Notes under the pieces: model-generated
What the model was told of the DNA's origin: nothing
Databases searched by the model: none
Seen by the model: the letters and a program-made list of their open reading frames with translations, nothing else
Made by a program: the position numbers and the translations under genes
IMG/VR virus record: IMGVR_UViG_3300001678_000032
Coordinates: 1-37,614 of that record
Direction: 5' to 3' (one strand)
Source of the DNA: a virus
Length of the DNA: 37,614 nt
Part shown: positions 1,578 to 15,946 of the stretch, piece by piece
Layout: every line of letters begins with the position of its first letter
How positions within the stretch are numbered: the first letter of the stretch is position 1

Positions 1578-4244
1578 TTAGAAGGTTCCGCCATCAATAA
1601 TGTTTGACGCAACAGGAACACCTGATGAATTAAACTTAATAATGTAATCTTCTGGATTTGAAACTCCAGCCATATCGATAAAGTGTACAGCAGTTCCTGA
1701 TCCGTTAGATATCATGATAGCATCTGGAGTGAAACTACTCAATCCAGTACCACCAGATGTTACAGGAACATCATTATCAAACGTAACATTACCATTGACT
1801 GTCAAGTCAGTTGTGATCTGAACAGTACCTGTTATCGTAGTGTTGCCACCAGCAGGAGTAACAGTTAGATCACCAGTTTTAGTAGTAATCGTATTGTCTT
1901 TAACAACTAAGTTTCCAGTAGCACCAGTTTCTAAAGTTCCTCTTAGGAATAAGTTAGAGAATTGTGCATCACCCCAAGGCGCATCATAATCTTCATCATC
2001 AACTCCAGCAACTTTCGTTACATCAGGTTTGAATGAGAATCTATTGGTAGCGTTATCAAAACCAAAGAAACCAGTTTTAACATCAGTGCCATCACCATAG
2101 TCGAAATTAACACCACGGTCAATTAAGTCTACTGCAGGTAAAGAACCATCACCAACTTTAATAACTGGATCATTTAATGTCGTTACTGTTGACTCGATCG
2201 TAGTAGTAGTTCCGTTAACAGTTAAGTTACCGTCTATTACTGCATTGCCACCAACATTTAAGTTGTCTGTAATATCTACATCACCTGATAATACATCAAT
2301 ACCAGCGTTGAAGTCAGCATCTACATTTACATTTAACTTAGTAGTTACATTTAATGTTCCTACGTTAGCCGTACCTGTGTTAGCTGTTGTAATGTTAGCA
2401 ATCGGAGTTGTAATCTGATCAGTTACATATACACCTAACTTTGTTACTGTTAACTCTTCTGTGCCAGCTGCAATAAATCTTAGAGTGTCATCATCTAACG
2501 ATGAGTATCCTAATTGATCTCCTACTTCAGCTGTGATGTACGTATCTTGATCGATATCAACTACACCACCTAATCCAGTCCAAGCACCGCCAGCAACACC
2601 TTCAAATCTTCCGTCAGTTGTGTTGTATCTAATTGCAGCATTGCCTAAGAATGAAGCACTAGGTCTAGTTCCTTCAGAACCCATTGGAATGATTAATGCT
2701 GTATCACTATCTACAGTTACAACTCCAGTTCCATTAGGAGTTATAGTAAGACTTCCATCATTATCAATTGATGAAATAGTATTACCATTGATTCTAACAT
2801 TATCAATATCTGCGATACCGTTTAACGTTAATGTAGTACCATTGAATGTAAAGTTAGCAGAGTCTTCAATCTCACCACCGATTCCAGCAATAACAACTCT
2901 ATTATCAGTTAAGTCTTCAACCTTTAATGTTGCAATGGTAGCTGAAGTATCAACATCCAATGAACCAGTTATATGATTGTCACCGTTTAAGTATAACGTT
3001 GCTCCGTTATATGTTAGGTCAGCAGAGTCTTCAATCTCACCACCAGCACCAACGAATACCATACGGTCATTTGTTAAGTCCTGGACATTTAATGAATCAA
3101 CAGTTAGTTGAGCATCAATGTTAGTATCACCACCAATTTGTACTGTACCTGAAGTAGTTGTGTTACCGTTTACAGATAATAAAGTACCATCAAACGTGAA
3201 GTTAGCTGAATCCTCAATCTCTCCAGAAGGACCTGAAATAACAACACGATTGTTAGTTAAGTCAGTAACAGCTAATGAAGCAATAGTTGTTTGTGAATCA
3301 ATAGCAACTGTACCACCAAAGTAACCAGTACCAGATGTAGTAGTATTACCAGTAACAGCTAATGTAGTACCATTGAATGTAAAGTTAGCAGAGTCTTCGA
3401 TCTCTCCAGAAGGACCAACAATAACAACACGGTTATCAGTTAAGTCTTCTACGTTTAAAGAAGCAACAGTTGTCTGTGAATCTATGTTTACAGTACCTGT
3501 AATCTGTGCATTAGCATTAAGGTATAACTCAAGGCCATCAAATGTTAAGTTAGCTGAATCCTCTAACTCACCACCAGCACCAACAAATACCATACGATCA
3601 TTTGTTAAGTCTTCAACGTTAAGAGAAGCTAGTGTAGATTGGCCATCAACATGTAAAGTACCATTAACAAGAGAATTACCAGTTGTTGTTGTGTTACCGT
3701 TTACAGTTAATAATGTGCCATCGAACGTGAAGTTAGCAGAGTCTTCGATCTCGCCTGCGATACCAACAATAACAACTCTGTTATTAGTTAGATCTTCAAC
3801 GTTTAAAGAAGCTAAAGTCGTTTGACCTTCAATATCTATTGTACCAGATACTGTTAAGTTGCCAACAATATTAGTACTAGCTTGAACATTTAAATCACCA
3901 CTACCATTAGGATCTAGTAATAAATCACCATTAGTGTTGGTTGTTGTAATAGCATTACCATCAATAGTAATGTTATCAATATTGATTAAATCAATCTTAT
4001 TATCAGAACCTGTGATAATTGCGTGATTCGCAATAGTTTTACCAAAGTCTGTTGCTGATGCTTTTAATTGATCGGTATAGAACTTACCACCGATTGCAAT
4101 TGGATCGATAACTCCACCGTTATCCCATCCTATCCATAATTTATCGCTTATATACGAATAAGCCTGTTCACCTTGAGCTAATGCATTACTTGCAGGTTGT
4201 GCAGTAGTCAAGGAAAATTTAGTTACAATAACTGTACCTGACAT
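1578..4244 (-). CDS. Long tail fibre protein with six internal repeats, 888 aa
   Basis: The start is ATG 4244, preceded by a strong AAGGAGATAAAC. Residues 1-50 resemble an attachment domain (VIVTKFSLTTAQ...QGE.AY..ISDKLWIGWDNGG). From about residue 140 to 490 there are six units of roughly 55-61 residues. Each contains 'VEDLT.NRVVI.G..GEIEDSANFTF.GT.L..NGN', a beta-rich repeat probably stacked along a trimeric shaft. Residues about 650-760 contain a segment (STVTTLNDPVIKVGDG, then FFGFDNATNRFSFKPD) seen in other T4-like marine phage structural proteins. The C-terminus is IIDGGTF. The family is recognisable as a virion fibre; the exact T4 counterpart is not. Confidence 0.85.
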   Translation of the reverse strand: MSGTVIVTKFSLTTAQPASNALAQGEQAYSYISDKLWIGWDNGGVIDPIAIGGKFYTDQLKASATDFGKTIANHAIITGSDNKIDLINIDNITIDGNAITTTNTNGDLLLDPNGSGDLNVQASTNIVGNLTVSGTIDIEGQTTLASLNVEDLTNNRVVIVGIAGEIEDSANFTFDGTLLTVNGNTTTTGNSLVNGTLHVDGQSTLASLNVEDLTNDRMVFVGAGGELEDSANLTFDGLELYLNANAQITGTVNIDSQTTVASLNVEDLTDNRVVIVGPSGEIEDSANFTFNGTTLAVTGNTTTSGTGYFGGTVAIDSQTTIASLAVTDLTNNRVVISGPSGEIEDSANFTFDGTLLSVNGNTTTSGTVQIGGDTNIDAQLTVDSLNVQDLTNDRMVFVGAGGEIEDSADLTYNGATLYLNGDNHITGSLDVDTSATIATLKVEDLTDNRVVIAGIGGEIEDSANFTFNGTTLTLNGIADIDNVRINGNTISSIDNDGSLTITPNGTGVVTVDSDTALIIPMGSEGTRPSASFLGNAAIRYNTTDGRFEGVAGGAWTGLGGVVDIDQDTYITAEVGDQLGYSSLDDDTLRFIAAGTEELTVTKLGVYVTDQITTPIANITTANTGTANVGTLNVTTKLNVNVDADFNAGIDVLSGDVDITDNLNVGGNAVIDGNLTVNGTTTTIESTVTTLNDPVIKVGDGSLPAVDLIDRGVNFDYGDGTDVKTGFFGFDNATNRFSFKPDVTKVAGVDDEDYDAPWGDAQFSNLFLRGTLETGATGNLVVKDNTITTKTGDLTVTPAGGNTTITGTVQITTDLTVNGNVTFDNDVPVTSGGTGLSSFTPDAIMISNGSGTAVHFIDMAGVSNPEDYIIKFNSSGVPVASNIIDGGTF
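2775..3830 (-). repeat. Six degenerate in-frame repeats (about 165-185 bp) in the 888-aa fibre gene
   Basis: Successive units encode LTNNRVVIVGIAGEIEDSAN, LTNDRMVFVGAGGELEDSAN, LTDNRVVIVGPSGEIEDSAN, LTNNRVVISGPSGEIEDSAN, LTNDRMVFVGAGGEIEDSAD and LTDNRVVIAGIGGEIEDSAN. Two sub-types alternate irregularly: units 2 and 5 carry DRMVFVGAGG, the others NRVVI. This suggests duplication of blocks rather than of single units. Limits are approximate. Confidence 0.85.
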
Positions 4245-4320
4245 GTTTATCTCCTTAAAATTATACTATGCGTGGAACTGAATTCCACTTACCTTTGCGT
4301 ATGCGTAATGCTATGTAGCA

Positions 4321-4533
4321 CTAAAAACTTCCGCCTATTATATTAAGATTTGGGTTTTCTACTACGCCAAGAACTTTGAAAGTCTGTGTATTAGCATCCC
4401 AAATTATCACTGAGCCATCTTGTCTTAATGATGTATCTACATCGACAAGATCGCCTAATCTTTGTGTAGGGGTATAACTCATAGCCTTAGCTTGAATCCC
4501 TCGATTGCTGCCGATTTTTCCTTTAAGAGCCAT
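4321..4533 (-). CDS. Small virion protein, 70 aa, unknown function
   Basis: It begins MALKGKIGSNRG and contains 'LGDLVDVDTS...DGSVIIWDANTQTFK', a pattern common in phage fibre proteins. It ends NIIGGSF, close to the IIDGGTF end of the 888-aa fibre encoded next door. Its ATG overlaps the stop of the 110-aa gene by one base (TAATG), so the two are translationally coupled. Probably a minor adhesin or adaptor. No enzymatic motif is visible. Confidence 0.65.
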   Translation of the reverse strand: MALKGKIGSNRGIQAKAMSYTPTQRLGDLVDVDTSLRQDGSVIIWDANTQTFKVLGVVENPNLNIIGGSF

Positions 4534-4865
4534 TATCGAGTCACCCCTGGTGTTATTTCAAGTTGTCCTTCAACAACTCGTGTAATTTCGCCAGCAGAGC
4601 TTACGACTTCAACATCGTATACATATCTTCCTGGTTTCATATTGTTAGTTACACTATTGACTAGCTTTATTTGGATAACACCTTCAGCGGCATTTACGTG
4701 AGAACATATAAAATCTACCTTATTAGTAGATGTATAAGTCTTTCGTATTTGTCCAAATATAGTATATCCGGTTAGATTCGCTCCATACCCAGTAGCATCT
4801 TCTACTGTAATCTGAGTACTAAAGTCGGAACCTTGATCTATTGTAATGTTAGAATATATAGCCAT
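4533..4865 (-). CDS. Small beta-sandwich virion protein, 110 aa
   Basis: The sequence MAIYSNITIDQGSDF is followed by 'T.Y...GQIRKTY', 'KPGRYVYDVEV' and a final 'EGQLEITPGVTR'. This matches a small immunoglobulin-like or baseplate-upper-protein-like structural family seen in marine T4-like phages. Two TATAAATA boxes lie upstream, at 4879-4872 and 4930-4923. The nearer one would start the transcript at about the ATG, and no Shine-Dalgarno is present. The gene directly follows the accessory cassette and is the first fibre-side gene to its left. Confidence 0.6.
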   Translation of the reverse strand: MAIYSNITIDQGSDFSTQITVEDATGYGANLTGYTIFGQIRKTYTSTNKVDFICSHVNAAEGVIQIKLVNSVTNNMKPGRYVYDVEVVSSAGEITRVVEGQLEITPGVTR

Positions 4866-4871
4866 ATAAGT

Positions 4872-4879
4872 TATTTATA
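4872..4879 (-). promoter_or_regulatory. Candidate T4-type late promoter giving a near-leaderless transcript
   Basis: Minus-strand TATAAATA whose last base is 7 nt before the ATG at 4865. With a T4-like start about 6 nt after the box, the mRNA would begin 1 nt before the AUG. Confidence 0.5.
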
Positions 4880-4922
4880 GTTTTGAACTTCTAAGGTATA
4901 TGATTATACCTCGATATAGTCT

Positions 4923-4930
4923 TATTTATA
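4923..4930 (-). promoter_or_regulatory. Second candidate late promoter upstream of the 110-aa gene
   Basis: Minus-strand TATAAATAAG in the 76-bp gap after the stop of the diiron gene at 4942. It would give a leader of about 50 nt to the gene at 4865 and separates cassette transcription from the fibre genes. Confidence 0.5.
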
Positions 4931-4941
4931 CAAGGCAGCTG

Positions 4942-5715
4942 CTACAACTGATAAGCTTTGATATGTGTCTTTAGAATGTCTGTTCTCTTGTATGGATTAT
5001 CATCTCCAAACCAGGTTTGGAACAACATGTACTTCATATTGACCATCTCCAATAAGTCTTTAGGAGTCAATAAATCTATAGTATCTTCTATAATGTATTT
5101 AAAGTGGTCTTTCATATCCCCAACATGACCAGATACTAAACTTGGTAGAACATCTAATGCTCTTTGTTTATGGTATGCATCTTTACTTATCAAATCATTA
5201 ATAAGCAGCTTTAAAGCATTGTAGTGTCTCACTTCATCATTACGTATATTGAGTATAAGCTCTTTAAACTTAGGATGCTCTATTCTATTAGCTGCTGCTG
5301 TATATAGGGGTGCTTGAATAGACTCAGATGAACATACTGTCATCATCAATTGATATACATCCCAATCGTTATCATCAGATGAGAAACTATTGTATAGATC
5401 ATTACTTACTACCTTTTTACCAACGACTTTATATAGGGCCATGCCATGTCTGAATTCTTCGTATGTCATTATACTAGTAAACAATAGTATTTCCATAAAG
5501 TCTGATCTATATTGTTCTGGAACACCACTGATTATCTTATCTCTTGCAGAACATGTTATAGCTAATGAGAACATCTCTACATCAGCTACATGCACTAGTA
5601 TGCCAGCAATAGCTTTATCATTATCAGATAGATCTTTAACCCAAGGATAGTCATACTCATTAGCTAACCACCTATGAGAATCTGACACTTCAGACCAATG
5701 GATCAGTGTCTTCAT
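4942..5715 (-). CDS. Ferritin-like diiron oxidoreductase, acyl-ACP-desaturase-like (paralogue A)
   Basis: The 257-aa protein carries a full set of six candidate iron ligands in ferritin-like order: E47 (helix 1), E87 and H90 in YEEFRHG, E131 in CSSES, and E161 and H164 in NDEVRHY. The EExRHG plus DExRH pair is the signature of soluble acyl-ACP desaturases (EENRHG and DEKRHE in plants), which use O2 to insert a double bond into an acyl chain on ACP. The protein is shorter than plant desaturases (about 360 aa). The C-terminal region has a conserved WFGDDNPY. It overlaps its paralogue upstream by 4 bp (ATGA), and the operon also encodes ACP and a ketosynthase. It could instead be an N-oxygenase or hydroxylase of the same fold; chemistry is not decidable here. 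Confidence 0.75.
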   Translation of the reverse strand: MKTLIHWSEVSDSHRWLANEYDYPWVKDLSDNDKAIAGILVHVADVEMFSLAITCSARDKIISGVPEQYRSDFMEILLFTSIMTYEEFRHGMALYKVVGKKVVSNDLYNSFSSDDNDWDVYQLMMTVCSSESIQAPLYTAAANRIEHPKFKELILNIRNDEVRHYNALKLLINDLISKDAYHKQRALDVLPSLVSGHVGDMKDHFKYIIEDTIDLLTPKDLLEMVNMKYMLFQTWFGDDNPYKRTDILKTHIKAYQL

Positions 5716-6485
5716 TTTCTCATTGCTTTAACATGAGCTATCTTCAACTTGGCTGGTGTGTATGGATTATCATCACCAAACCAATGTTCTAACAGTTTAA
5801 ACTTTGTATTAGTAACATTCATTAAGTCTTTAGGTGTCCACAAGTGCTTAGTCATATCAGCACCTCTCATATAGTCTTTATGTATTTCAGCATTATGGAA
5901 GTGGATAGCTAAGTCAAGATTATCAAGCATCTGTTGTTTATGGAAATCGTTCTTATTAATCAATTGTTTGATAAGATCCCTCCAAGCAGATAAATGTCTT
6001 GCTTCATCTCTTTTAATGTTCTTAAAGATGTCTTTGAGTCGTTCATCCTCAACAGCATTAATGATCTTCTCATATACCATTACATTAGTTGCTTCAGATA
6101 TAGCAAAAGACATTAATAATGAATATGCAGTCCAATTATGGACATTATCTGCTTCAACTCTAGTATCTTCAGCCCACTCTTCATCAGATAGCTTTATACC
6201 ATTCAACGCGTTGATTACAGTACCATGTCTAAACTCTTCGTATGATATGATTGATGAGTATACAGCTATAGTAGCCCAATCATTTATATAATCTTCTGGG
6301 ATCATCTTGAACATCATGTACACAGATCCAGTTCCTGAATGCTCTCCCTTAGCTATATCTCTTAACGTCTTTAATACAGCTTTGTCGTCATCAGACAATT
6401 CACTTATCCAAGGATAATCATAATTGCCTTCAATCTTCCATCTTTGGTTGTCAGATAGATTAGCCCATTTAATAATAGTATCCAT
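5712..6485 (-). CDS. Ferritin-like diiron oxidoreductase, acyl-ACP-desaturase-like (paralogue B)
   Basis: 257 aa, the same length as its neighbour and alignable along its whole length (shared DYPW, YEEFRHG, DExRH, TPKDL and WFGDDNPY). Candidate diiron ligands are E48, E84, H87, E131, E161 and H164. The pair therefore arose by tandem duplication, and neither copy has lost a ligand. The start ATG at 6485 overlaps the stop of the ketosynthase by one base (TAATG). The helix-1 context differs between copies (GEHSGTGS here, VEMFSLAI in copy A), as does helix 3. That would fit different substrates or an obligate heterodimer. The family is inferred from motifs; an ACP-bound substrate is inferred from the operon. 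Confidence 0.75.
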   Translation of the reverse strand: MDTIIKWANLSDNQRWKIEGNYDYPWISELSDDDKAVLKTLRDIAKGEHSGTGSVYMMFKMIPEDYINDWATIAVYSSIISYEEFRHGTVINALNGIKLSDEEWAEDTRVEADNVHNWTAYSLLMSFAISEATNVMVYEKIINAVEDERLKDIFKNIKRDEARHLSAWRDLIKQLINKNDFHKQQMLDNLDLAIHFHNAEIHKDYMRGADMTKHLWTPKDLMNVTNTKFKLLEHWFGDDNPYTPAKLKIAHVKAMRK

Positions 6486-7489
6486 TATAACCCTCTCGTC
6501 AGTATAGATCCAAATACATTGCCCATTCCAGATGATAGATGTAGTATGATCCCTTTATATTCATTCAATGATAAATCCAATTCAATGCCGGATGATGAAC
6601 CTAATGTATGTCCTATTAGTTTTTTATATGATATAGTACCAATGTCAGACCCTAGCATATCCCTTACTACCTGCAACTCCACTTTATTATCATCAGTTCC
6701 TGTGTCATGAAGTTTCACTAAATCTATGGACTGCTTTATGTACTGTCCAGTGGCCTTTTGAACAGCATCTTTAATAACCCTCTTGTACCCATCTCCAGAA
6801 GAGTTAATTCCTATAGGATTGCTATATGTCTCGTGATAAGTTGATACATGCATCAGTTCAGCAATTGCTTCATTACCAGTAAGCTCCATAGAGTGTTCAT
6901 TCTCTATTAATGTATACGAAGCTCCTTCTCCTAAGTAAAAGGTATCCCTAAAGTCATCAACAGTGTTGCATACCTTATTCTTGCAGAAGAATTCGAGCAG
7001 TTCATTGGATGACCCATCTTCTGCAGATACGATGAGCACTCTATCTAATTCACCTGACTTGATTAACAACTCTGCATGCTTCATTGCTGCAGTATGTGAT
7101 ATACAAGCTGTTCCATCTACAGATAAATGATCAAAGACACCTACTCTATTAGCAATGTATCCCATTAAGATATTATGTAATGATAATGCGTGATTTTTAG
7201 TAGTAGGATATTTGTCAGGAGTCTTAACTAGATCACATATGAATCCAGAAGATGTTGTATTGCCTGCAGCATATATCAATCCGGATCTAGCAGTAGTTAA
7301 ACTATCTTCTAAATTATGATTGGCAAATAACTTATCTAATACGAGATGTATTTTAGTTTTGATTCCACGATCTACAAACTTCATATCTCGTTCATCTAAT
7401 ATAGAATGAACATAGGTAGGTATATTAAGATCGTCTATCAGTCTCAGTTCTCTTGAGCTAATAGATTTAGTCTTAGTAATGTAAATCAT
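6485..7489 (-). CDS. Beta-ketoacyl-ACP synthase of the FabF/FabB type
   Basis: The 334-aa thiolase-fold protein has the complete Cys-His-Lys-His set: C129 in DGTACISH, H261 in HDTGTDDNKVE (compare H-GT-T...N..E), K289, and H294 in KKLIGHTLGSSSGIEL, close to the FabF K..TGH..GAAG motif. 'ELDRVLIVSAED' matches the strand after the nucleophile helix. These enzymes extend an acyl chain by decarboxylative condensation with malonyl-ACP. It is shorter than FabF (about 410 aa), mostly before the Cys, so the cap and dimer region is reduced. HDTGT in place of HGTGT and the missing N-terminal part suggest a specialised member. The start overlaps the ACP stop (ATGA). Confidence 0.85.
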   Translation of the reverse strand: MIYITKTKSISSRELRLIDDLNIPTYVHSILDERDMKFVDRGIKTKIHLVLDKLFANHNLEDSLTTARSGLIYAAGNTTSSGFICDLVKTPDKYPTTKNHALSLHNILMGYIANRVGVFDHLSVDGTACISHTAAMKHAELLIKSGELDRVLIVSAEDGSSNELLEFFCKNKVCNTVDDFRDTFYLGEGASYTLIENEHSMELTGNEAIAELMHVSTYHETYSNPIGINSSGDGYKRVIKDAVQKATGQYIKQSIDLVKLHDTGTDDNKVELQVVRDMLGSDIGTISYKKLIGHTLGSSSGIELDLSLNEYKGIILHLSSGMGNVFGSILTRGL

Positions 7490-7803
7490 AGTACTTGGTT
7501 TATAGCTTCATCCTTGGTAGGATCTAAAGTATGCACCTCATTGATGCAATTTAAGATATCTTCTATTAATAGAGGTCGGGGAGGTTCAGGAGATATATCT
7601 GGGTGATTGTTAAAATCATCATCACTGATTCCCCAGATATCACCCATGTAAATGAATACTGTAATAAAGTCTAATGAGTCTACACCAGTGTCTGTTAATG
7701 CTTGAGAAGCGTCATCCACTAGCTTATAGTCGGATTTAATGTTAATAGCCTCTTCACATATTACCATAATTATGTCAAATTGTTCTTGCCTACTTGTATT
7801 CAT
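7486..7803 (-). CDS. Acyl carrier protein
   Basis: 105 aa, with the phosphopantetheine-attachment motif DTGVDSLDFITVFI. The serine carrying the prosthetic group is S43. A final helix resembles the ACP C-terminus (LLIEDILNCINEV). The protein is longer than typical ACP (about 80 aa), mainly through a PEPPRP-containing loop after helix II and a C-terminal tail. It is the first gene of the leftward arm, with a GGAG 9-10 nt before the ATG. It would need a host phosphopantetheinyl transferase, since none is seen here. It is the presumed carrier for the ketosynthase and the two diiron proteins downstream. Confidence 0.85.
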   Translation of the reverse strand: MNTSRQEQFDIIMVICEEAINIKSDYKLVDDASQALTDTGVDSLDFITVFIYMGDIWGISDDDFNNHPDISPEPPRPLLIEDILNCINEVHTLDPTKDEAINQVL

Positions 7804-7859
7804 AATATATTCTCCAATTGTTTATACTATATATATATGTACACTATATTATATTTTTA
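7804..7859. promoter_or_regulatory. Divergent promoter region of the accessory cassette
   Basis: The 56 bp between the ACP start (7803) and the radical SAM start (7860) is nearly all A/T and must hold promoters for both arms. The minus strand contains TATAAACA, one mismatch from the late box, about 20 nt before the ACP ATG, followed by TTGGAG. The plus strand has TATATTAT-like sequence and no Shine-Dalgarno before 7860. Exact promoters cannot be fixed by eye. Confidence 0.5.
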
Positions 7860-8849
7860 ATGACTATGTTTCTAGATGAAATAAACTCAATCCATATTGA
7901 ACTTACCAACAGATGTAACGCTAAATGTCCTATGTGCATGAGAACATTTAACGATAAGATTAAAAACGATCCTCAAGATATTTCCATTGACAGCTTTAAA
8001 GAATGGTTCTCCCCTGAATTTATTGCAGGCCTGACTAAGATTAAGTTTTGTGGTAATGCTGGAGATCCTGCAATCGCAAAAGATTGTTTAAAGATACATC
8101 AGTACGTTATTGAATGCAACCCCAACATACAGCTATTGATGAATACTAATGGTGGAGTTAGAACTGAAAAGTTTTGGTCTCAGTTAGGTGATTTGTATAA
8201 GAACAACGAGGAGAGTTTTGTTACATTCCACATTGATGGGTTGGAAGATACTAATCATATATACCGAAAGGGCGTGGTATGGTCTAAGATAATGAAAAAT
8301 GCTGCTGCATACAATGCAACAAAAGCTAGATCTCTTTGGGCATTCATACCATTCTTTCATAATGAACATCAAAAAGAAGAGGCTGAAGAGCTATCCGTTA
8401 AATTAGGGTTCACTAACTTTGCGTTAAAGATATCAGCGAGATGGAACAACAGATCTAAACCACATAAAAGTGAATCAGGAATTATATACCCACCAACATC
8501 TAGTGAGTTTAACATCGATGGATTTCAAGTATTTGATGATCATCCAACTTGTGTAGCATTAGCTCGTAAAGAGATGTATATAGATTCTTGGGGAAGATTG
8601 TTCCCATGTTGTTGGGTAGCATCTAAAGTAGAGTCTGGTAAGATTGAAGTAAACGAAGACCTATCTTTATATAATAATAGTATAAATACTATCATGAATA
8701 ATAACTATTATGACCATGAACTGAAAGATTCGTGGAGTAATAGACACAAATCATCTGTTTGCCACGAGAAGTGTACAGGATCTAAGGTTCACGTATGGGA
8801 AGTAGATGGAGTTAAACGACCACAAAAAGATATGTGGCACATAGGATAG
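7860..8849 (+). CDS. Radical SAM enzyme with SPASM-like C-terminal cysteine cluster
   Basis: The start chosen is ATG 7860 (329 aa). The frame is open further upstream, but only through promoter-like A/T sequence; ATG 7866 is also possible. The CxxxCxxC motif that binds the [4Fe-4S] cluster used to cleave SAM is C19, C23, C26 in ELTNRCNAKCPMCMR. 'KFCGNAGDP' (63-70) fills the SAM-binding 'GGE' position. A second group of cysteines, C231, C250, C251, C301 and C305 (LFPCCW ... CHEKC), looks like a SPASM or twitch auxiliary-cluster domain, typical of enzymes that modify peptides, sugars or other large substrates. It is not a QueE (which is shorter and lacks SPASM), although its neighbour is QueC-like. 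Substrate unknown. Confidence 0.8.
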   Translation: MTMFLDEINSIHIELTNRCNAKCPMCMRTFNDKIKNDPQDISIDSFKEWFSPEFIAGLTKIKFCGNAGDPAIAKDCLKIHQYVIECNPNIQLLMNTNGGVRTEKFWSQLGDLYKNNEESFVTFHIDGLEDTNHIYRKGVVWSKIMKNAAAYNATKARSLWAFIPFFHNEHQKEEAEELSVKLGFTNFALKISARWNNRSKPHKSESGIIYPPTSSEFNIDGFQVFDDHPTCVALARKEMYIDSWGRLFPCCWVASKVESGKIEVNEDLSLYNNSINTIMNNNYYDHELKDSWSNRHKSSVCHEKCTGSKVHVWEVDGVKRPQKDMWHIG

Positions 8850-8853
8850 ACAA

Positions 8854-9645
8854 ATGATAAATTTACCTGATGTTAATAAGGTTTTTATAAGTCATAGTGG
8901 TGGCATGGATAGCACATTAGTGCTACTACTAGCTATTGACAAATATGGTAAGGATAATGTTACTGCAGTATATGCTAATATAGGTCATATAATGTCTGGA
9001 GACATAAACGCCACTAAGGATGATGCTGCTCACATGGTATTCAATCATATGTCAAGTTTAATTGATGTCAACTCAGTTATAATAGAAGATTCTGATTTTC
9101 AATCGGTTGATATACACGAGGCCGATATGCACAACATGTTTGCCAAGATAAGAGATATCATACTATTAAAATCCAACTTACCAGTTGAAACACTACCTTT
9201 ATTTGGAATCACTAAAAAGGAAAAGGATATCATAGATCTACAACGATTGAGTGTATCAGCAGATGGAGTTGTACAAACGATTGATATCGATGCTATAGAA
9301 GAAGAGGTTGCTAATAATCCAGAGAAATACAGTGGAGTTGTTAATGCTTATGGACTAGGTAACATTCGTAAACATATTCCAGAACTCCTATCCACAGTTT
9401 ATAGTAAGTTTTCTAAAGAGATGATTGATGAAGCAGAGGCTGGTCAAGCTCCTATATTCAACTTGAATAAGGCTGATATTATTAAAGAATATGTTAGTCG
9501 TGGGTGGGAAGATATTATGTACAAAACTATATCATGCTCTAAACCTGTTGATAACCTCAATTGTGGAATTTGTGATTTATGTAATGAAAGGAAGAGATCA
9601 TTTGAAAATGCAGGAGTTGCTGACAACACAGTATACATTGGTTAA
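8854..9645 (+). CDS. QueC-like PP-loop ATPase
   Basis: 263 aa. The PP-loop SGGMDST is at residues 15-21 (HSGGMDSTLVLLLAI). The C-terminus has the QueC zinc site, C228, C237, C240 and C243 (SCSKP...CGICDLCNERKRSF...AG..D.T.Y). QueC uses ATP to turn 7-carboxy-7-deazaguanine into 7-cyano-7-deazaguanine (preQ0), by activating the carboxylate and adding ammonia. The middle of this protein (about residues 95-210) looks divergent from bacterial QueC. No QueD, QueE or FolE is in the window. It may therefore make preQ0 for tRNA or DNA modification with genes elsewhere, or adenylate another carboxylate. It starts 4 bp after the radical SAM stop. Confidence 0.75.
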   Translation: MINLPDVNKVFISHSGGMDSTLVLLLAIDKYGKDNVTAVYANIGHIMSGDINATKDDAAHMVFNHMSSLIDVNSVIIEDSDFQSVDIHEADMHNMFAKIRDIILLKSNLPVETLPLFGITKKEKDIIDLQRLSVSADGVVQTIDIDAIEEEVANNPEKYSGVVNAYGLGNIRKHIPELLSTVYSKFSKEMIDEAEAGQAPIFNLNKADIIKEYVSRGWEDIMYKTISCSKPVDNLNCGICDLCNERKRSFENAGVADNTVYIG

Positions 9646-10204
9646 CTTTACTGATTATGAATACGGTTCTACTATAGGTATAGCTGATGTTGGCAAAGGG
9701 GTTCCTCATGAATCAACAGCATATTTATATCTTAAAGCATGTGAACACTTCGGCGAGGATAATGTTATCCTTATTAATTTAAATTACGGACAATGTAAAC
9801 CTAGTTACATCACCTTCAATGAAGCATGTGAAATAATTAAACCAAAACACAGTCTAGAATTTAAACCTGATGATTTTAATGCATCGTTAATTGGTGGTGA
9901 TATTAATACAACTCTACAGCATGTGTTAGATGTGTATAAAACTAAAGTAACTCAATATGGTTTAAATGCTCCCATACATCTATTAAAGAGCATTACTAAA
10001 CAGTCAAGAGATTTTATTGAAAATGGTGGTTATCATCCAATACTATCAAACATACCACCAGATTGTATAGATAACATACTTGAAAGTGCTCCTCTATTTA
10101 ATATGAGTAATGAAGATATAATTGAAGCTATGAACCAAGATGGTTATGGAGATATAATTGACAAATATAATATGTGTAAAGCAAGGTACCAAGTACTCAG
10201 CTGA
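9608..10204 (+). CDS. QueC-like paralogue lacking the PP-loop and zinc site
   Basis: The chosen start is ATG 9608 (198 aa), with GGAAGAG about 11 nt upstream; an ATG at 9584 is the alternative. It overlaps the QueC-like gene by 38 bp. It aligns with that neighbour in two places. Residues 28-61 (GKGVPHESTAYLYLK, then FGEDNVILINLNYGQ) align with SGGMDSTLVLLLAIDKYGKDNVTAVYANIGH-type sequence. Residues 161-190 (APLFNMSNEDIIEA...C) align with APIFNLNKADIIKE...C. The ATP-binding SGGxDS is replaced by KGVPHES, and the CxxCxxC zinc site is gone. The protein is therefore probably not a working PP-loop enzyme. It could be a regulatory or partner subunit of the active copy. The relation is by eye. Confidence 0.65.
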   Translation: MQELLTTQYTLVNFTDYEYGSTIGIADVGKGVPHESTAYLYLKACEHFGEDNVILINLNYGQCKPSYITFNEACEIIKPKHSLEFKPDDFNASLIGGDINTTLQHVLDVYKTKVTQYGLNAPIHLLKSITKQSRDFIENGGYHPILSNIPPDCIDNILESAPLFNMSNEDIIEAMNQDGYGDIIDKYNMCKARYQVLS

Positions 10205-10823
10205 CTATGTGAATAAACTATATGGAATGGTAGAGAGGAATTTGAATGTTCCCTTTACATTCCATTGTTACACAGAAGACCCCACCGACATTCGTTCGGA
10301 AGTTCAAATAACACAAATCAAAACAGACTTGGAAAAGTGGTGGCTCAAATTAGATTGTCTTAATATATTTAATGAAGGGACTAACATTCTATTTGACTTG
10401 GATATTGTTATACTAAACCCACTAGAAAGATTACTATCTGTTAAGACAAGAACCTTGTCTATACTATATGCCCAATGGAAAGAGGGATATGTTCAACCGA
10501 AGGATATAGGATTCTCTACTTTATATAACTCTTCTATAATGAAGTGGGAAGGAGATCAAGGTAAAGACATCTATGAGTACTTCCAACAACATAAAGACAA
10601 AATACTATTTAAATATAAAGGTATAGATAGATATATGTTTAATGAACCAGTTGAGGTAGATCTTCTGCCAACATCAATTGCGTACTCTTATTGGAAGGGT
10701 GTTAGATACAAGAAAGATACAAAAGCAGAAATTGAGCGTTTAGATTATGAAGTATGCATCCTCAACCATAGTCCTAAGCCACATGAAATAAAGGACTCAT
10801 GGATACACAAGTATTGGTACTAA
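10158..10823 (+). CDS. Glycosyltransferase, GT-A fold, TTG start
   Basis: 221 aa. The start is TTG 10158, supported by GGAG 6 nt upstream and by the beta-strand beginning at once (TNIICVKQGTKYSADYVNKL). The metal- and sugar-nucleotide-binding DxD is D80-L81-D82 in NILFDLDIVIL, preceded by KWWLKLDCL, as in GT8/GT32-like enzymes. It ends with 'VCILNHSPKPHE...W'. It would transfer a sugar from a nucleotide donor; acceptor unknown. It overlaps the preceding gene by 47 bp, so the two are translationally coupled. The second glycosyltransferase of the operon (13867-14565) has a similar opening. Confidence 0.75.
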   Translation: MTNIICVKQGTKYSADYVNKLYGMVERNLNVPFTFHCYTEDPTDIRSEVQITQIKTDLEKWWLKLDCLNIFNEGTNILFDLDIVILNPLERLLSVKTRTLSILYAQWKEGYVQPKDIGFSTLYNSSIMKWEGDQGKDIYEYFQQHKDKILFKYKGIDRYMFNEPVEVDLLPTSIAYSYWKGVRYKKDTKAEIERLDYEVCILNHSPKPHEIKDSWIHKYWY

Positions 10824-11947
10824 AAAAAGACCCAGATTTAACTATAACAATCTCTTCAAATGCTCCACATTTCGATTATGTTCACCTGCAACACATAGCA
10901 ACTAAGAATGGTATTAGCAAAGCTATAACAGACTTCAAAGATGAGTACTTTATCACAATGCAATGGAAGGATAATGATCCCCATTTAATGGCGTCGTTAG
11001 CTAACGGAGGATTGTATTCTGATGGAGTTTATAGAATAACTAAGATATACATCAAAGATCAAATGCCTATAATGGTCAGTAAAGCTCAGATAACACACTT
11101 ATTCCATATAACAGATTATATCCCAGAAATAGACTGTAAACTGTTCTTTGGTAGCAGGGGGGTTAATGACCATCCATGGGCCAGGATAGCTAATATGACT
11201 GGCAACAGTGATATAGATGAAGAGAATGTTTATATGGTGGGTGTTAATCCTGACAAGAAGAGCACATGGAAGCACATATATTATAGTGGAGACATATCAC
11301 TATTGACTATACCTAAGATGTCTTTAGCGGAGTATAAAGAACGATTTAAAGAATATGAATATACTGATTGGGCTAAAGATTGGTGCAAGCCAGCAATAGA
11401 GAATAGTAAGTTCTTATTTGATAAGTTTGAAACTCCAAGTAAGGTGTTGGAGGTAGGAACATTTGAAGGAGCCTATACTTTTTGGTTAGCAGATAATTAC
11501 AAATTAACTGTAGATACTGTTGACCCTTTCGACGGAACAGTGTATAATGTAAGTAAAGAAGACTTTAACTTCGTTTATAATAATTTTAAACATAACTTAG
11601 ATATGTGTGTAAACAAAGATAATGTTACATTACATAATGATAATTCTTACGATGTTCTTAAACGTATGACTGATATATTCGATTTCATATATGTAGACGG
11701 ATCTCATATAGCATCTAACGTATTAGAGGATTTAGTTTTATCATTTAAGTTGTTGAAGAAAGGGGGCATCATGTTAATGGATGATGCTACTGCATGGAAG
11801 TATAGAGATCAATTAACTAAGGAAGTGTCTCATGATATAGGACATGCTCCCAGATTAGCAGTTGATAGCTTCATCCATTGCAATTGGGCCAACATAAAAG
11901 TTATAAATCTACCAGCAGGAAATCAAGTAGCAATTCAAAAATTATAA
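10799..11947 (+). CDS. Two-domain protein with C-terminal SAM-dependent methyltransferase
   Basis: 382 aa. Residues 1-165 form a region I do not recognise (ITISSNAPHFDYVHL..., with HPWARIANMTGN near 125-136). From about 205 there is a class I methyltransferase: motif I is KVLEVGTFEGAYTFWLADN (216-), followed by DTVDPFDG, 'LHNDNSYDVL', FDFIYVDGSHIASNVLEDL and LLKKGGIMLMDD. This matches the Methyltransf_24 type found in surface-sugar and natural-product clusters. The start ATG 10799 overlaps the glycosyltransferase end by 25 bp. The acceptor is unknown. The N-terminal domain may bind the substrate or be a second enzyme. Confidence 0.75.
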   Translation: MDTQVLVLKKDPDLTITISSNAPHFDYVHLQHIATKNGISKAITDFKDEYFITMQWKDNDPHLMASLANGGLYSDGVYRITKIYIKDQMPIMVSKAQITHLFHITDYIPEIDCKLFFGSRGVNDHPWARIANMTGNSDIDEENVYMVGVNPDKKSTWKHIYYSGDISLLTIPKMSLAEYKERFKEYEYTDWAKDWCKPAIENSKFLFDKFETPSKVLEVGTFEGAYTFWLADNYKLTVDTVDPFDGTVYNVSKEDFNFVYNNFKHNLDMCVNKDNVTLHNDNSYDVLKRMTDIFDFIYVDGSHIASNVLEDLVLSFKLLKKGGIMLMDDATAWKYRDQLTKEVSHDIGHAPRLAVDSFIHCNWANIKVINLPAGNQVAIQKL

Positions 11948-12597
11948 TGACAGTTGAACAAATTAAAGTATGGTGTGCTGATAATAATGTATTTTACTTG
12001 AAGGCCAATATAAAACTTCCTAAGGGAATCTATGAAGAAGCTGATGCATTATATAAGTCTGGTTTCTTTATTCCTCATAGAGATTCCCATGGACGCAATT
12101 GGGAAGTATCTACATTGAGAGGTGAAGAGTGGAACGTCACTACTTATGATAAGTCTAAACGTGATAATTATAAGTGGACAGAGGTTGCTGATAGAACTCC
12201 TATAATGACTAAATGGCTTAAAGAAACATTCCCATCTAATCTACATACTTTAGGCCGATGCAGATTTATGTTACTAAAACCTGGCGGGTTTATTCGAAGT
12301 CATACTGACACACATAAGTGGGAAGATGGTATGCCTCTCAAGAATGATATACTATCAGCTATTAATATATCCATCAATCAACCAGACAATTGTTATTTAC
12401 GGAGAACAGAAGATTGTTTAGAAGTTCCATTCACTCCAGGATCTGTATTCTGGTTTAATAATGGAGCATTCCATGAAGCAGCTAACTTCTCTAAGGATAA
12501 TAGATATCACTTTATTATACATGGTGGTGCTAATATAGAACGCAATCAACTGTTTATTGATTCATTTATGAAGGAGTATCCTGATGCTGTCATTTGA
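11947..12597 (+). CDS. 2OG-Fe(II) dioxygenase of the aspartyl/asparaginyl beta-hydroxylase type
   Basis: The chosen start is ATG 11947 (216 aa), which overlaps the preceding stop as TAATG; the frame is open further upstream inside the methyltransferase gene. The iron ligands are H119 and D121 in KPGGFIRSHTDTHKW and H176 in NNGAFHEAANFS. R186 in KDNRYHFIIHG is the expected 2-oxoglutarate-binding arginine. The pattern 'RCRFMLLKPGG..R.H.D...AINISIN.PDNC' is that of the Asp/Asn/Pro beta-hydroxylase family. It would hydroxylate an amino-acid-like or related substrate using O2 and 2-oxoglutarate. Soluble; no signal peptide. Substrate not predictable. Confidence 0.8.
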   Translation: MTVEQIKVWCADNNVFYLKANIKLPKGIYEEADALYKSGFFIPHRDSHGRNWEVSTLRGEEWNVTTYDKSKRDNYKWTEVADRTPIMTKWLKETFPSNLHTLGRCRFMLLKPGGFIRSHTDTHKWEDGMPLKNDILSAINISINQPDNCYLRRTEDCLEVPFTPGSVFWFNNGAFHEAANFSKDNRYHFIIHGGANIERNQLFIDSFMKEYPDAVI

Positions 12598-13870
12598 TGA
12601 ACTAGCTGAGTATATACTATCTAACTCCAAACACAATACTATAAAGAATACCAAGAAGGTACACATAATAGTAGACTACCCTAAATTGAAGTGGGGAGAC
12701 TATTCAGAATACTTAATGACCTTAACTTGGTTTACTGGTATTGGCTGGAGTAACGGCGGATCAAAAGGATGTAACGTAATATTTGCTCATACCTTGGATG
12801 AGGCTTGCAAGAAGGCTGATGAATATGACCATGCTATGGTATCATACATAGGAACTTTCTACCAGAATAATCCTGATAATATGATACACACTCACTTCGA
12901 TAAGTTTTGTAAATCAGATCATCCATGTAGGGGACATATACTATGGCACCCAAATAAACAATATGGTAGACTACATCTTCAATCGATGTTCTTATCGTTA
13001 AAGCATTGGAGAGAGATCGGCCGTCCTACATTTGGAAACTATACTGGAAGAGTTGTAGTACCGAAGTTATCTAACAGCAATGTTCATGATGACTACACAC
13101 CTCATTACTTAACTCCCCAAGATGAATACACGGATGTTAAAAATGCTGAAATGGCTGAATATATCTCTAAGGTATTAGAATCAGGTAAAACTATTTTAAA
13201 TTATGATATAGAAAGGAGTTCTAAATTCTTTACATATCCTCATAGAGCTACTAAGGACGACCTAGTATGTGAAGCGCTAGACTTTGAACGTAATAGAAAA
13301 TCTAACATAATATATACACGTAATAACGAGAAGATCAATAAGAACTTATTTGATCATAAGTTTGATGTTATATATGCTCCTGCTTCTGGAAACCTAGCTG
13401 AATATTTGTGGAGAGTGTATGGTCATTCTAATACCAAGTTGGTGATATTTGATAATAATCTTCCTAGTGTGAAATGGAAAGAACGATTGTATGACTTAGT
13501 CCAAACACCAAAAGATATCGATAGAGTAACCAACAGCATTGTTCAATTGTATAAGTCTGATATTGATGATTGCTCGTATAAGCCTGAATTAGTATTTAAA
13601 ATGCAAGAGGTGTATTCTGATGAAGAATGGATATCAGATATGAAGTCTATCTCAAATGTAGAGTTTATCCAACATGATCTGGTATTGGATAATACTCTCC
13701 AACCAGATCCATCTAAAAACACATTAATGTATTTCTCTAATATATTTGCATATAATTTTATATACCACGTAGCAAGGTTAGAAGATATTAATAACAAATT
13801 TAATGAATATTTGAACTTACCTAATTGTGTAGTAGTAGGTAAAAATCCATTTAAGGACAATGTACGATGA
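12584..13870 (+). CDS. Unknown protein, 428 aa, in the glycosylation/modification operon
   Basis: I do not recognise a family. The start ATG 12584 has AAGGAG 7 nt upstream and overlaps the hydroxylase gene by 14 bp. The N-terminal part begins with a beta-strand (KKVHIIVDYPKLKWGDYSEYLMT-type), followed by alpha/beta sequence with 'GHILWHPNKQYGRLH' at about residues 116-131. The C-terminal third has 'FDVIYAPASGNLAEYLW' and 'TKLVIFDNN', and a final segment (NTLMYFSNIFAYNFIYH) that resembles a Rossmann-type methyl- or glycosyltransferase end. It lacks a clear DxD or GxGxG. It is soluble with no membrane helix. Its ORF stop overlaps the next ATG by 4 bp (ATGA), so it belongs to the same pathway. 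Confidence 0.75.
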   Translation: MLSFDELAEYILSNSKHNTIKNTKKVHIIVDYPKLKWGDYSEYLMTLTWFTGIGWSNGGSKGCNVIFAHTLDEACKKADEYDHAMVSYIGTFYQNNPDNMIHTHFDKFCKSDHPCRGHILWHPNKQYGRLHLQSMFLSLKHWREIGRPTFGNYTGRVVVPKLSNSNVHDDYTPHYLTPQDEYTDVKNAEMAEYISKVLESGKTILNYDIERSSKFFTYPHRATKDDLVCEALDFERNRKSNIIYTRNNEKINKNLFDHKFDVIYAPASGNLAEYLWRVYGHSNTKLVIFDNNLPSVKWKERLYDLVQTPKDIDRVTNSIVQLYKSDIDDCSYKPELVFKMQEVYSDEEWISDMKSISNVEFIQHDLVLDNTLQPDPSKNTLMYFSNIFAYNFIYHVARLEDINNKFNEYLNLPNCVVVGKNPFKDNVR

Positions 13871-14565
13871 ACATAGTAGCAGTTAGAATAGGAGACCGAT
13901 ACGGTCCTGAATACGAGACTTACTTAGAAGGTAAGTTACCTCAACACAACTTCATTTGGATTAGGGAAGCTATGGCTCCTAACATAATGCTCCAATGGAA
14001 TAAGATGTACGGCATGACTTTAGATCAGGATGAACCTATCTGTGTTGTGGATATTGATGTATTATTATTAGGAGACTACAATAAGATATTTGACTACCCT
14101 ATTGAACCAGGACAGTTCTTAGCAGCACCTGGTTACTGGAGAGATCTTCAAGGAGAAGATGCCATTCGTTGGTCTATCAATGGAGGGTTCTATAAGTACT
14201 ACCCTAAAGACTGTAGATATATCTATGATAAGTTTATGAAGCAGCCTGAGTATTGGCAACGTAAGTATATTGAAGAAGGCTTCACGAGTGGTCCTGTGAA
14301 CGGAGAACAACATTTCATCGAAGACTCGGTTAAAGAACAGTTGGATTTAGTTGTATTGCCTAATGAGTGGTTCTGTAGAATGGATGCTAGAGTTGGAGAT
14401 GAAGCTCGTCATTCCATGACCACTCTTAATAAGCTGTATAATAAACATACAGGAAATGGTTATATGTATTTAGGTAAGGAGTTTCATCCTGCAATTAAGC
14501 ATGTTCACTTTACACATATGGATAATCACCCAAGCAATTGGGAAGATTATGAACTATTCGTATAA
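13867..14565 (+). CDS. Glycosyltransferase, GT-A fold, last gene of the rightward arm
   Basis: 232 aa. It starts MNIVAVRIGDRYGPEYETYL, parallel to the opening of the glycosyltransferase at 10158. The DxD is D62-I63-D64 in EPICVVDIDVLLLGDY. 'INGGFYKYYPKDCRYIYDKF' and 'VNGEQHFIED' resemble the acceptor-side region of GT8-like enzymes. 'KHVHFTHMDNHP' near the end supplies a His that could complete the metal site. It meets the oppositely oriented structural gene at 14554 with a 12-bp overlap of the two 3' ends, which marks the cassette's right border. Confidence 0.75.
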   Translation: MNIVAVRIGDRYGPEYETYLEGKLPQHNFIWIREAMAPNIMLQWNKMYGMTLDQDEPICVVDIDVLLLGDYNKIFDYPIEPGQFLAAPGYWRDLQGEDAIRWSINGGFYKYYPKDCRYIYDKFMKQPEYWQRKYIEEGFTSGPVNGEQHFIEDSVKEQLDLVVLPNEWFCRMDARVGDEARHSMTTLNKLYNKHTGNGYMYLGKEFHPAIKHVHFTHMDNHPSNWEDYELFV

Positions 14566-15027
14566 GAACTTACCTGCAATATATAATGATTCAAGAGGAG
14601 TTTTAGCTTCTCTAAGTTGCTTCTTTAAGGCTGCATTGGTTGAGCCTTCTACTTCTGACATTTCAAATATTTTAATCTTAATATTAAATAAGAAATCTAT
14701 ATTTAAATCGTCAGGTGCTGGATTGAAGATGTGATCTACTGTTAATCTATCTTGCTGATCTGCAGCATTAGGATCGTATACTAATCCATAGTCAATACAC
14801 ATATTCTTAACGAATGCTGTGAAGTTAGCTCTATCAACCTCATGACGTTGGTTGGTCATATTAGTGATTTCATCAATAGTAAACTGTTCTAATAGTTCTA
14901 GATAATCAGGATTCTCTAAATCCGCAGGTACTAAGATTGCTTCAGGAAATTCTAGTCCTTCAACAATTGCAACTGTATCAATATAGTCCTTCTTTGAACT
15001 TGTAAAAAATGCTTCTGTAAATACCAT
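14554..15027 (-). CDS. Small structural-cluster protein, 157 aa
   Basis: The ATG at 15027 is chosen because a GAGG lies 10 nt upstream; a TTG at 15036 would extend the protein by three residues but sits too close to that site. The protein is acidic (MVFTEAFFTSSKKDYIDT..., 'LENPDYLELLEQFTIDEI', 'DQQDRLTVDHIFNPAPDD'). It has a C-terminal helix with 'NAALKKQLREAKTPLESLY'. I do not know its function. It is the last gene before the cassette, 1 bp after the 305-aa gene, so it probably belongs to the virion or fibre-assembly set (an adaptor or fibre chaperone is possible). Confidence 0.6.
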   Translation of the reverse strand: MVFTEAFFTSSKKDYIDTVAIVEGLEFPEAILVPADLENPDYLELLEQFTIDEITNMTNQRHEVDRANFTAFVKNMCIDYGLVYDPNAADQQDRLTVDHIFNPAPDDLNIDFLFNIKIKIFEMSEVEGSTNAALKKQLREAKTPLESLYIAGKFLYE

Positions 15028-15028
15028 G

Positions 15029-15946
15029 TTATTCAAACCTCACTCGTAAATTATAATTGCTAACGGTGTATGCACTGCCATTAGGAAATTCTTGTGATCT
15101 ATAGTCATCACCGACTTGTAGTTTCTGGTAATTACCCGATCCATTTAATCTTGTATCTGAACAAGCAGAACCTTGAGATGAACCAGATCCATTCCAACTC
15201 CATCTTAATCTATAACCAGTAACACTAGACGCTAGGTGTTTAACTGTTTGAAATATATAATCCTGATCAGTATTTTCTACAGCACTATATTCTTGTAATG
15301 ATCCATTGTTAAGAGTACTAAATCGTATCATCTGTGGTAGATTACCAGTAGTAATAGGGTTTCTTTTATGCAAGTAATAATTACCTACACCATAAGGTTG
15401 ATCTTGTGTCTCTGCGATTCCTGCAGCTGTGTATGAACTAACGCTAGCTCGTGTGTCATAAAACACCTGTCCCTGCTTTGTATAAGAAGCCACAGAATTA
15501 GCTGTAGATATTTTAAAAAATTCTGAATCCTTAACTTTAGTTAAAGCAGTATACGAAAATGTATCATATACATCCTGTAATGACATTTTTCTAAGGCTGC
15601 CAGAGCCGTTGTAATATACAGGGAAATTATCAACATTCGGTGCATTAACAGTTGTAACAGTTTGATTTACCTTAGAATATCCTACAGATACAACAACGGG
15701 TTCAGCAGTTGAAGATTCTGCAACAAATGCTGTGCTACTAGAACTGCTTGCTCCAGCTTTTAATCTAGAATCATAGATTGTACCCAGGTTACCACCTCCG
15801 GTTGCAGATGCAACATAGGTCAAGTATACATTAGCCTCACTGAGGTACCTACTATATAATCTATTGCGAGCTACATCTATGTCAGCATCACTAAATTCTT
15901 TGATGTTTCCATAACTATCGTACTTTAAAGGTCTTCTAAAAGCCAT
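15029..15946 (-). CDS. Virion structural protein, 305 aa, fibre-like
   Basis: It begins MAFRRPLKYDSYGNIKEFSD, an opening I associate with structural proteins of marine T4-like phages. Residues 1-40 are helical (DADIDVARNRLYSRYL) and the rest is Ser/Gly/Thr-rich beta-type sequence ending YNLRVRFE. AAGGAA stands 8 nt before the ATG. It lies between the 666-aa fibre and the 157-aa gene in one leftward run. It may be a short fibre or baseplate-associated protein; the T4 counterpart is not evident. Confidence 0.7.
   Translation of the reverse strand: MAFRRPLKYDSYGNIKEFSDADIDVARNRLYSRYLSEANVYLTYVASATGGGNLGTIYDSRLKAGASSSSSTAFVAESSTAEPVVVSVGYSKVNQTVTTVNAPNVDNFPVYYNGSGSLRKMSLQDVYDTFSYTALTKVKDSEFFKISTANSVASYTKQGQVFYDTRASVSSYTAAGIAETQDQPYGVGNYYLHKRNPITTGNLPQMIRFSTLNNGSLQEYSAVENTDQDYIFQTVKHLASSVTGYRLRWSWNGSGSSQGSACSDTRLNGSGNYQKLQVGDDYRSQEFPNGSAYTVSNYNLRVRFE

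Follow-up and report, generated by a model that had tools for sequence, protein, structure and literature searches.

A divergent QueC-family protein and a putative motif-less paralogue in a radical SAM/glycosyltransferase cassette of marine phages

The window, that is, the whole stretch of DNA analysed here, is a fragment of 37,614 bases from an IMG/VR record and carries the structural genes (baseplate and tail) of a contractile-tailed phage. Between the tail genes lies a group of plus-strand genes in which two reading frames, P0001 and P0002, adjoin each other; the order is radical SAM, P0001, P0002, glycosyltransferase-like, methyltransferase, oxygenase, a 428-aa gene, and a second glycosyltransferase-like gene (Table 1). 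The first-pass annotation regarded P0001 as an active QueC-like enzyme and P0002 as its degenerate paralogue, and suggested that the two form one enzyme.

Table 1. Positions of the features discussed, in window coordinates
Feature	Position	Strand	Remarks	Basis
Radical SAM protein, C-terminal SPASM/twitch-like cysteines	7860..8849	+	directly upstream of P0001	PF04055; NF033640 below cut-off; synteny
QueC-family PP-loop protein P0001	8854..9645	+	263 aa	PF06508 7e-13, motif table
PP-loop SGGMDST codons, P0001	8896..8916	+		translation
Zinc site C228-x8-CxxCxxC, P0001	9535..9582	+		translation, motif table
Putative loop-less, zinc-less QueC-family paralogue P0002	9608..10204	+	198 aa; alternative start TTG 9638	BLASTP, profile, shuffles, codon score, decay simulation, model
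GVPHEST at PP-loop place, P0002	9698..9718	+		alignment
Glycosyltransferase-like gene	10158..10823	+	TTG start, GGAG upstream	phrog_1962; orthologues in L002, L163
Methyltransferase	10799..11947	+		PF13578 2.9e-14
Asp/Arg beta-hydroxylase-type oxygenase	11878..12597	+	real start near 11950	PF05118 2.5e-9
Second glycosyltransferase-like gene, same cluster	13867..14565	+	last of the plus-strand island	clustering; 72% identical L163 orthologue
Inserted cargo block	4942..15946	.	three related phages lack it at this position	L152, L153, L154

P0001 belongs to the QueC superfamily, with a score of 49 bits against PF06508 (gathering score, 22), and it also matches the phage QueC-like family phrog_1550 (4.5e-17). 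Its loop reads S15-G-G-M-D-S-T and its zinc site C228-x8-C237-G-I-C240-D-L-C243, so that the SGGxDS loop and the C(x)8CxxCxxC zinc motif of canonical QueC are both present; the translation and the motif table bear out the two motifs and their coordinates as first annotated. In contrast, none of the three substrate motifs that define canonical QueC (YxQxHxxE, VPxRN, and YPDC; PMC13329287) appears for P0001 in the motif table. VPxRN occurs in all 27 canonical-type sequences compared, and YxQxHxxE and YPDC in nearly all of them; the QueC genes of cultured phages that were compared keep VPxRN and mostly YPDC-like motifs. Three residues of these motifs, Y35, R99, and Y131 of E. coli QueC, have been proven essential (PMC13329287). 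The score of P0001 against the equivalog model TIGR00364 was 36.5 bits, compared with a cut-off of 150.3. The missing substrate motifs and the score far under this cut-off led us to judge, at the level of sequence, that P0001 is a divergent QueC-family protein and probably not a preQ0 synthase. Its earlier description as "active" is sound as regards the intact loop and zinc motifs, but residues essential in canonical QueC are missing, and the activity had been deduced from the two motifs only. When genome contigs were scanned with P0001 and the related L002 protein, canonical QueC genes were the only matches, and these were used as the comparison set. L005–L020, at first taken for relatives of P0001, were PAPS-reductase-like (SAGVTS) and were set aside. 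The "phage" records H3 and H4 carried canonical QueC, that of H3 having QueD, QueE, and FolE-like neighbours.

P0002 matched no model in Pfam, PHROGs, NCBIfam, or PADLOC. A single BLASTP comparison of P0001 with P0002 gave two best segments (E values of 4e-4 and 2e-3), which are collinear and coincide with the two blocks, one at each end, that had been aligned in the first-pass annotation. Smith–Waterman alignment of the two proteins gave a z score of about 6, with none of 1000 shuffles scoring as well, and P0001 is the best sequence match of P0002 inside the window. The corresponding z score of P0002 was 6.6 with L069, a sequence from outside the window, and 3.2 with L063 despite the 94% identity of L063 to L069, indicating that the score of any one pair is noisy. 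A profile built from phage and canonical QueC sequences found P0002 at an E value of 4.9e-5 among reading frames from 17 sources; its score was 19.4 bits, whereas none of 2000 shuffles exceeded 10.2. Comparison by hhalign yielded P values of 3.5e-5 for the C-terminal block of P0002 and, over 152 columns, 1.1e-4. When the profile was built from canonical QueC only, P0002 did not stand out from its own shuffles, and thus it is the phage branch that P0002 resembles. With the E value of 4.9e-5, the P value of 3.5e-5, and no shuffle among 2000 reaching its score, P0002 resembles the PP-loop family beyond chance, and we judge from these comparisons that its homology to the QueC family is real but distant, weak yet above chance. 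Tree analysis rejected neither a placement with P0001 (AU p 0.41) nor one with the L055-type branch (AU p 0.31), so that P0002 may have an origin other than duplication of P0001.

P0002 is a real, maintained coding gene. Its codon score per codon, taken over the part without neighbour overlap, is 0.194, compared with 0.200 for P0001; it exceeds all out-of-frame controls and falls among the values obtained for the remaining phage genes. When neutral decay of P0001 to 27% identity was simulated, a mean of 8.7 stops accumulated and none of 500 copies was still open. The codon score, together with a frame that is open where about nine stops would be expected from decay, led us to this conclusion. 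Two starts are possible: ATG 9608, which has GGAAGAG 11 bases upstream and gives a protein beginning MQEL, and TTG 9638, from which M-VNF aligns with M-INL of P0001. The 38-bp overlap with P0001 reported before is correct for the ATG, but the TTG would reduce it to 8 bp. The 3' end of P0002 overlaps the glycosyltransferase-like gene by 47 bp; the latter seems to begin at TTG 10158, inside the end of P0002, and its orthologues in L002 and L163 begin with ATG. At the place of the SGGxDS loop of catalytic PP-loop ATPases, P0002 reads GVPHEST, and only one of the four zinc cysteines is found (C190, at the first-ligand position), the chain stopping before the other three. The loss of the loop and of three cysteines agrees with the initial description of P0002. 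A YxQ element follows strand 2 in P0002 and is missing from P0001.

A structural model of P0002 guided by the family alignment (pLDDT 68.7, pTM 0.71) matched LarE, GMP synthetase, and NAD synthetase with Z scores of about 10. The predicted fold is accordingly of the PP-loop/HUP type, in agreement with the homology, although this is no independent proof because the alignment contains the family itself. The single-sequence model (pLDDT 35) was uninformative. No structural neighbour with an E value below 1e-3 was found among viral models, and the VIA-align list consists of re-ranked Foldseek matches, indicating the fold class and not the function. The first-pass annotation had named two results that would speak against its proposal, namely, the absence of a profile match and a predicted fold unrelated to PP-loop/HUP; given the match and the fold described above, neither arose.

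The relatives of the locus show what is shared and what is particular to the window. Fifteen relative loci (L055–L069) were gathered by searching with two aligned radical SAM proteins. In 12 of them the radical SAM gene is immediately followed, often with an overlap, by a QueC-like gene encoding about 265 aa, and the order is as follows: tail gene, radical SAM, QueC-like, a 190-aa gene (in some), glycosyltransferase, methyltransferase (in some), glycosyltransferase, and two further tail-locus genes. The window shares this order except for P0002 and extra genes. The QueC-like and radical SAM genes are slightly apart in the L002-type contigs (L002, L003, L062, and L064), and in L067 the radical SAM gene occurs without a QueC-like gene. 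Searches of whole records found one QueC-family gene in each of 13 records and none in L067. QueD was not found in 14 relative records of up to 114 kb, the control being positive in 9 of 14 known genomes. A tblastn search of 50,697 phage records found no match to the radical-SAM-linked branch (L055–L069). The contig L002 contains a related cassette in another order (3639–9657), with sulfotransferase, small kinase-like, oxygenase-type, glycosyltransferase, QueC-like, and radical SAM genes. We consider the conservation of the radical SAM/QueC-like/glycosyltransferase cassette in marine phages to be a firmer result than the P0002 paralogue.

The four zinc cysteines are present in every QueC-like protein of the relative cassettes, and the loops drift (SGGIKST, TGGIKSS, QGGIEST, SSGLEST, TGDIETT, and EADIEST). 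One or both glycines are lost in TGDIETT and EADIEST, which occur in single-copy genes; loss of the loop in this branch therefore needs no active sister. Such single-copy QueC-like genes with an eroded ATP loop (EADIEST, TGDIETT) and a full zinc site lie at 9001–9813 in L058, 9001–9798 in L061, and 9001–9798 in L065.

No relative of P0002 was found by direct search of viral contigs and phages, in 14 QueC/PAPS-type records, or in 36 related-phage records; most of these records are fragments, few reach the tail locus, and the first search step may miss weak matches. The 13 records with a QueC-like gene likewise lack P0002 and hold that gene as a single copy; the pair was seen in no other record searched. 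The slot of P0002 is empty in the relatives or occupied by an unrelated 190-aa gene, which was considered as a homologue and rejected for want of a match to P0002. The motif-less paralogue is real and, so far, one case, having been seen in the window phage only.

The closest relative of the cassette, L163, was reached through a search with the glycosyltransferase gene and shows 70, 61, 53, and 72% identity over four genes. It has two QueC-like genes: QueC-A (300 aa, SGGVNST), whose best match is P0001, and QueC-B (251 aa, TGGMESH), which is L055-type; both keep the zinc site. On the minus strand of L163 (1971–4421), QueC-A, radical SAM, and QueC-B form a single overlapping string, after which comes an oxygenase-type gene. 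P0002 shows no special likeness to QueC-B among the family members and is left unplaced by the trees, and we therefore regard the L163 pair as different from P0001/P0002 as far as the sequences tell; two QueC-like genes per cassette have thus been seen twice.

The pair most likely sits in a horizontally exchanged cargo cassette within the tail genes of a myovirus from the sea. In three related phages (L152, L153, and L154), whose structural proteins are about 50–83% identical to those of the window phage, the matches of 15963–17963 (weak in one) and 4533–4865 adjoin. Since these flanking genes are side by side there, the 11 kb that separates them in the window can be regarded as cargo. L150 and L151, which are identical here, carry a cargo of their own, in which both the glycosyltransferases and the radical SAM gene differ, and closer relatives of the window phage are without the cassette. 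The block also contains a second tandem paralogue pair on the minus strand, two overlapping 257-aa genes (4942–5715 and 5712–6485) that are alike and, by weak matches, of the ferritin-like diiron type. Adjoining them on the same strand and divergent from the radical SAM string, ketoacyl-synthase-like and acyl-carrier-protein-like genes (6485–7803) look like a small ACP-based pathway.

P0001 resembles canonical QueC in its PF06508 score and its two motifs and differs in its neighbours, which are radical SAM and glycosyltransferase genes with no QueD, QueE, or FolE seen; P0002, lacking loop and zinc site, differs further. QatC of the Qat defence system and Cap9 of type IV CBASS likewise use the QueC scaffold outside preQ0 synthesis and have an adjoining partner gene, but there the partner bears an N-terminal glycine and is not a relative of the enzyme, whereas P0002 is a putative family member starting MQEL or MVNF. 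P0001 scored 16.9 bits against the QatC model NF041925 (cut-off, 280); no qatA, qatB, or qatD was present among the annotated neighbours in the window, and none of ten neighbours in this fragmentary record matched a CD-NTase in Pfam. Deazaguanylation of a neighbour in the manner of Cap9/QatC was rejected, as no adjacent gene starts Met-Gly. The tRNA thiolase Ctu1/Ctu2 (Ncs6/Ncs2) offers a different parallel: it is held to descend from a homodimeric enzyme whose gene was duplicated and then diverged, and it combines a PP-loop enzyme with a diverged paralogue without cluster-binding cysteines, the two being 12–23% identical (PMC10067955). It belongs to another PP-loop subfamily with other chemistry and is eukaryotic, with Ctu2 found across eukaryotes. 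Moreover, Ctu2 retains a loose SGGxxS loop as well as its zinc fingers (PMC10067955, PMC4014090), whereas P0002 lacks loop and zinc site and has no known orthologue.

Our tentative reading, by analogy with Ctu1/Ctu2, is that P0001 and P0002 may be partners, P0002 being the non-catalytic member of an asymmetric two-subunit enzyme of this phage lineage. P0001 would use ATP to activate a carboxylate and couple it to an amine or ammonia, as in QueC, Cap9, and amide-forming PP-loop enzymes. The substrate could be what the radical SAM enzyme makes, or else a sugar or surface component on which the glycosyltransferases act, and the product would be other than preQ0. Less surely, P0002 might pair with P0001 by way of their common fold, in the manner of Ctu2 and Ctu1. 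This reading is consistent with the homology of the two proteins, the coding character of P0002, the overlap of the genes in one string, and the PP-loop fold of the alignment-guided model; the kept gene order, the absence of QueD from the 14 records, the missing substrate motifs, and the Ctu1/Ctu2 precedent also fit. Against it stand the lack of P0002 orthologues in the records searched, the persistence of single-copy relatives, some with a spoiled loop and no second copy, and the dependence of the model on an alignment containing the family. The fuller proposal of a heteromeric phage QueC-family enzyme behind a radical SAM protein, in which an active zinc subunit and a motif-less paralogue carry out a new, non-preQ0 carboxylate activation, is more doubtful; a modified sugar, base, or protein end is suggested as its product.

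Another possibility, and also a doubtful one, is that P0002 is an unpaired QueC-fold protein with an independent non-catalytic job, such as binding a substrate, carrier, or nucleotide, its neighbourhood reflecting origin or acquisition. The YxQ element absent from P0001, the unsettled tree placement, which would allow that P0002 is no copy of P0001, and the relatives that manage without it all fit this idea, but P0002 lies between P0001 and the glycosyltransferase gene, overlaps both, and has P0001 as its best match in the window. It is rather improbable that P0002 is a disappearing remnant of the second enzyme of an L163-like cassette (QueC-A, radical SAM, QueC-B). The two QueC-like genes around the radical SAM gene in L163, the lost ATP loop and zinc knuckle of P0002, and the overlap of its end with the next gene would agree with such an origin; a frame still open and ordinary codon usage in so extremely divergent a sequence, and the lack of special closeness to QueC-B, would not. 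We think it quite unlikely that P0001 is an ordinary preQ0 synthase serving 7-deazaguanine modification of DNA or tRNA made elsewhere in the genome, with P0002 incidental. Phage QueC often acts in that pathway, as in Arthrobacter phage Mufasa8 with its QueD and GTP cyclohydrolase neighbours, P0001 has the Pfam match, loop, and zinc site, and the window is a 37.6-kb fragment only; on the other side, the substrate motifs are missing, the TIGR00364 score is low, QueD was not found in the relatives' records, and the radical SAM neighbour matched no QueE model in NCBIfam. That P0002 is unrelated to QueC and its two blocks arose by chance is least likely of all, since several tests at about 1e-3 to 1e-5 and blocks in the correct order and spacing outweigh the absence of a curated match, the weak profile scores, the failure of the canonical-only profile, and the uninformative single-sequence model.

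Phage QueC-like genes themselves are well known; what is new here is the radical-SAM-linked QueC-like branch and its motif-less copy. Protein conjugation by QueC-family members in anti-phage defence is a recent finding, which makes further branches of the fold of interest, and the present branch occurs in phages, tied to radical SAM and tail-locus glycosyltransferase genes, and was not found among cultured phage records. If P0002 is not a subunit, the branch still shows that a QueC-like protein may lose its ATP loop and keep its zinc site, which brings the role of such proteins into question. If P0002 is a subunit, the pair would be a small, tractable case of enzyme asymmetry arising by duplication, in parallel to Ctu1/Ctu2.
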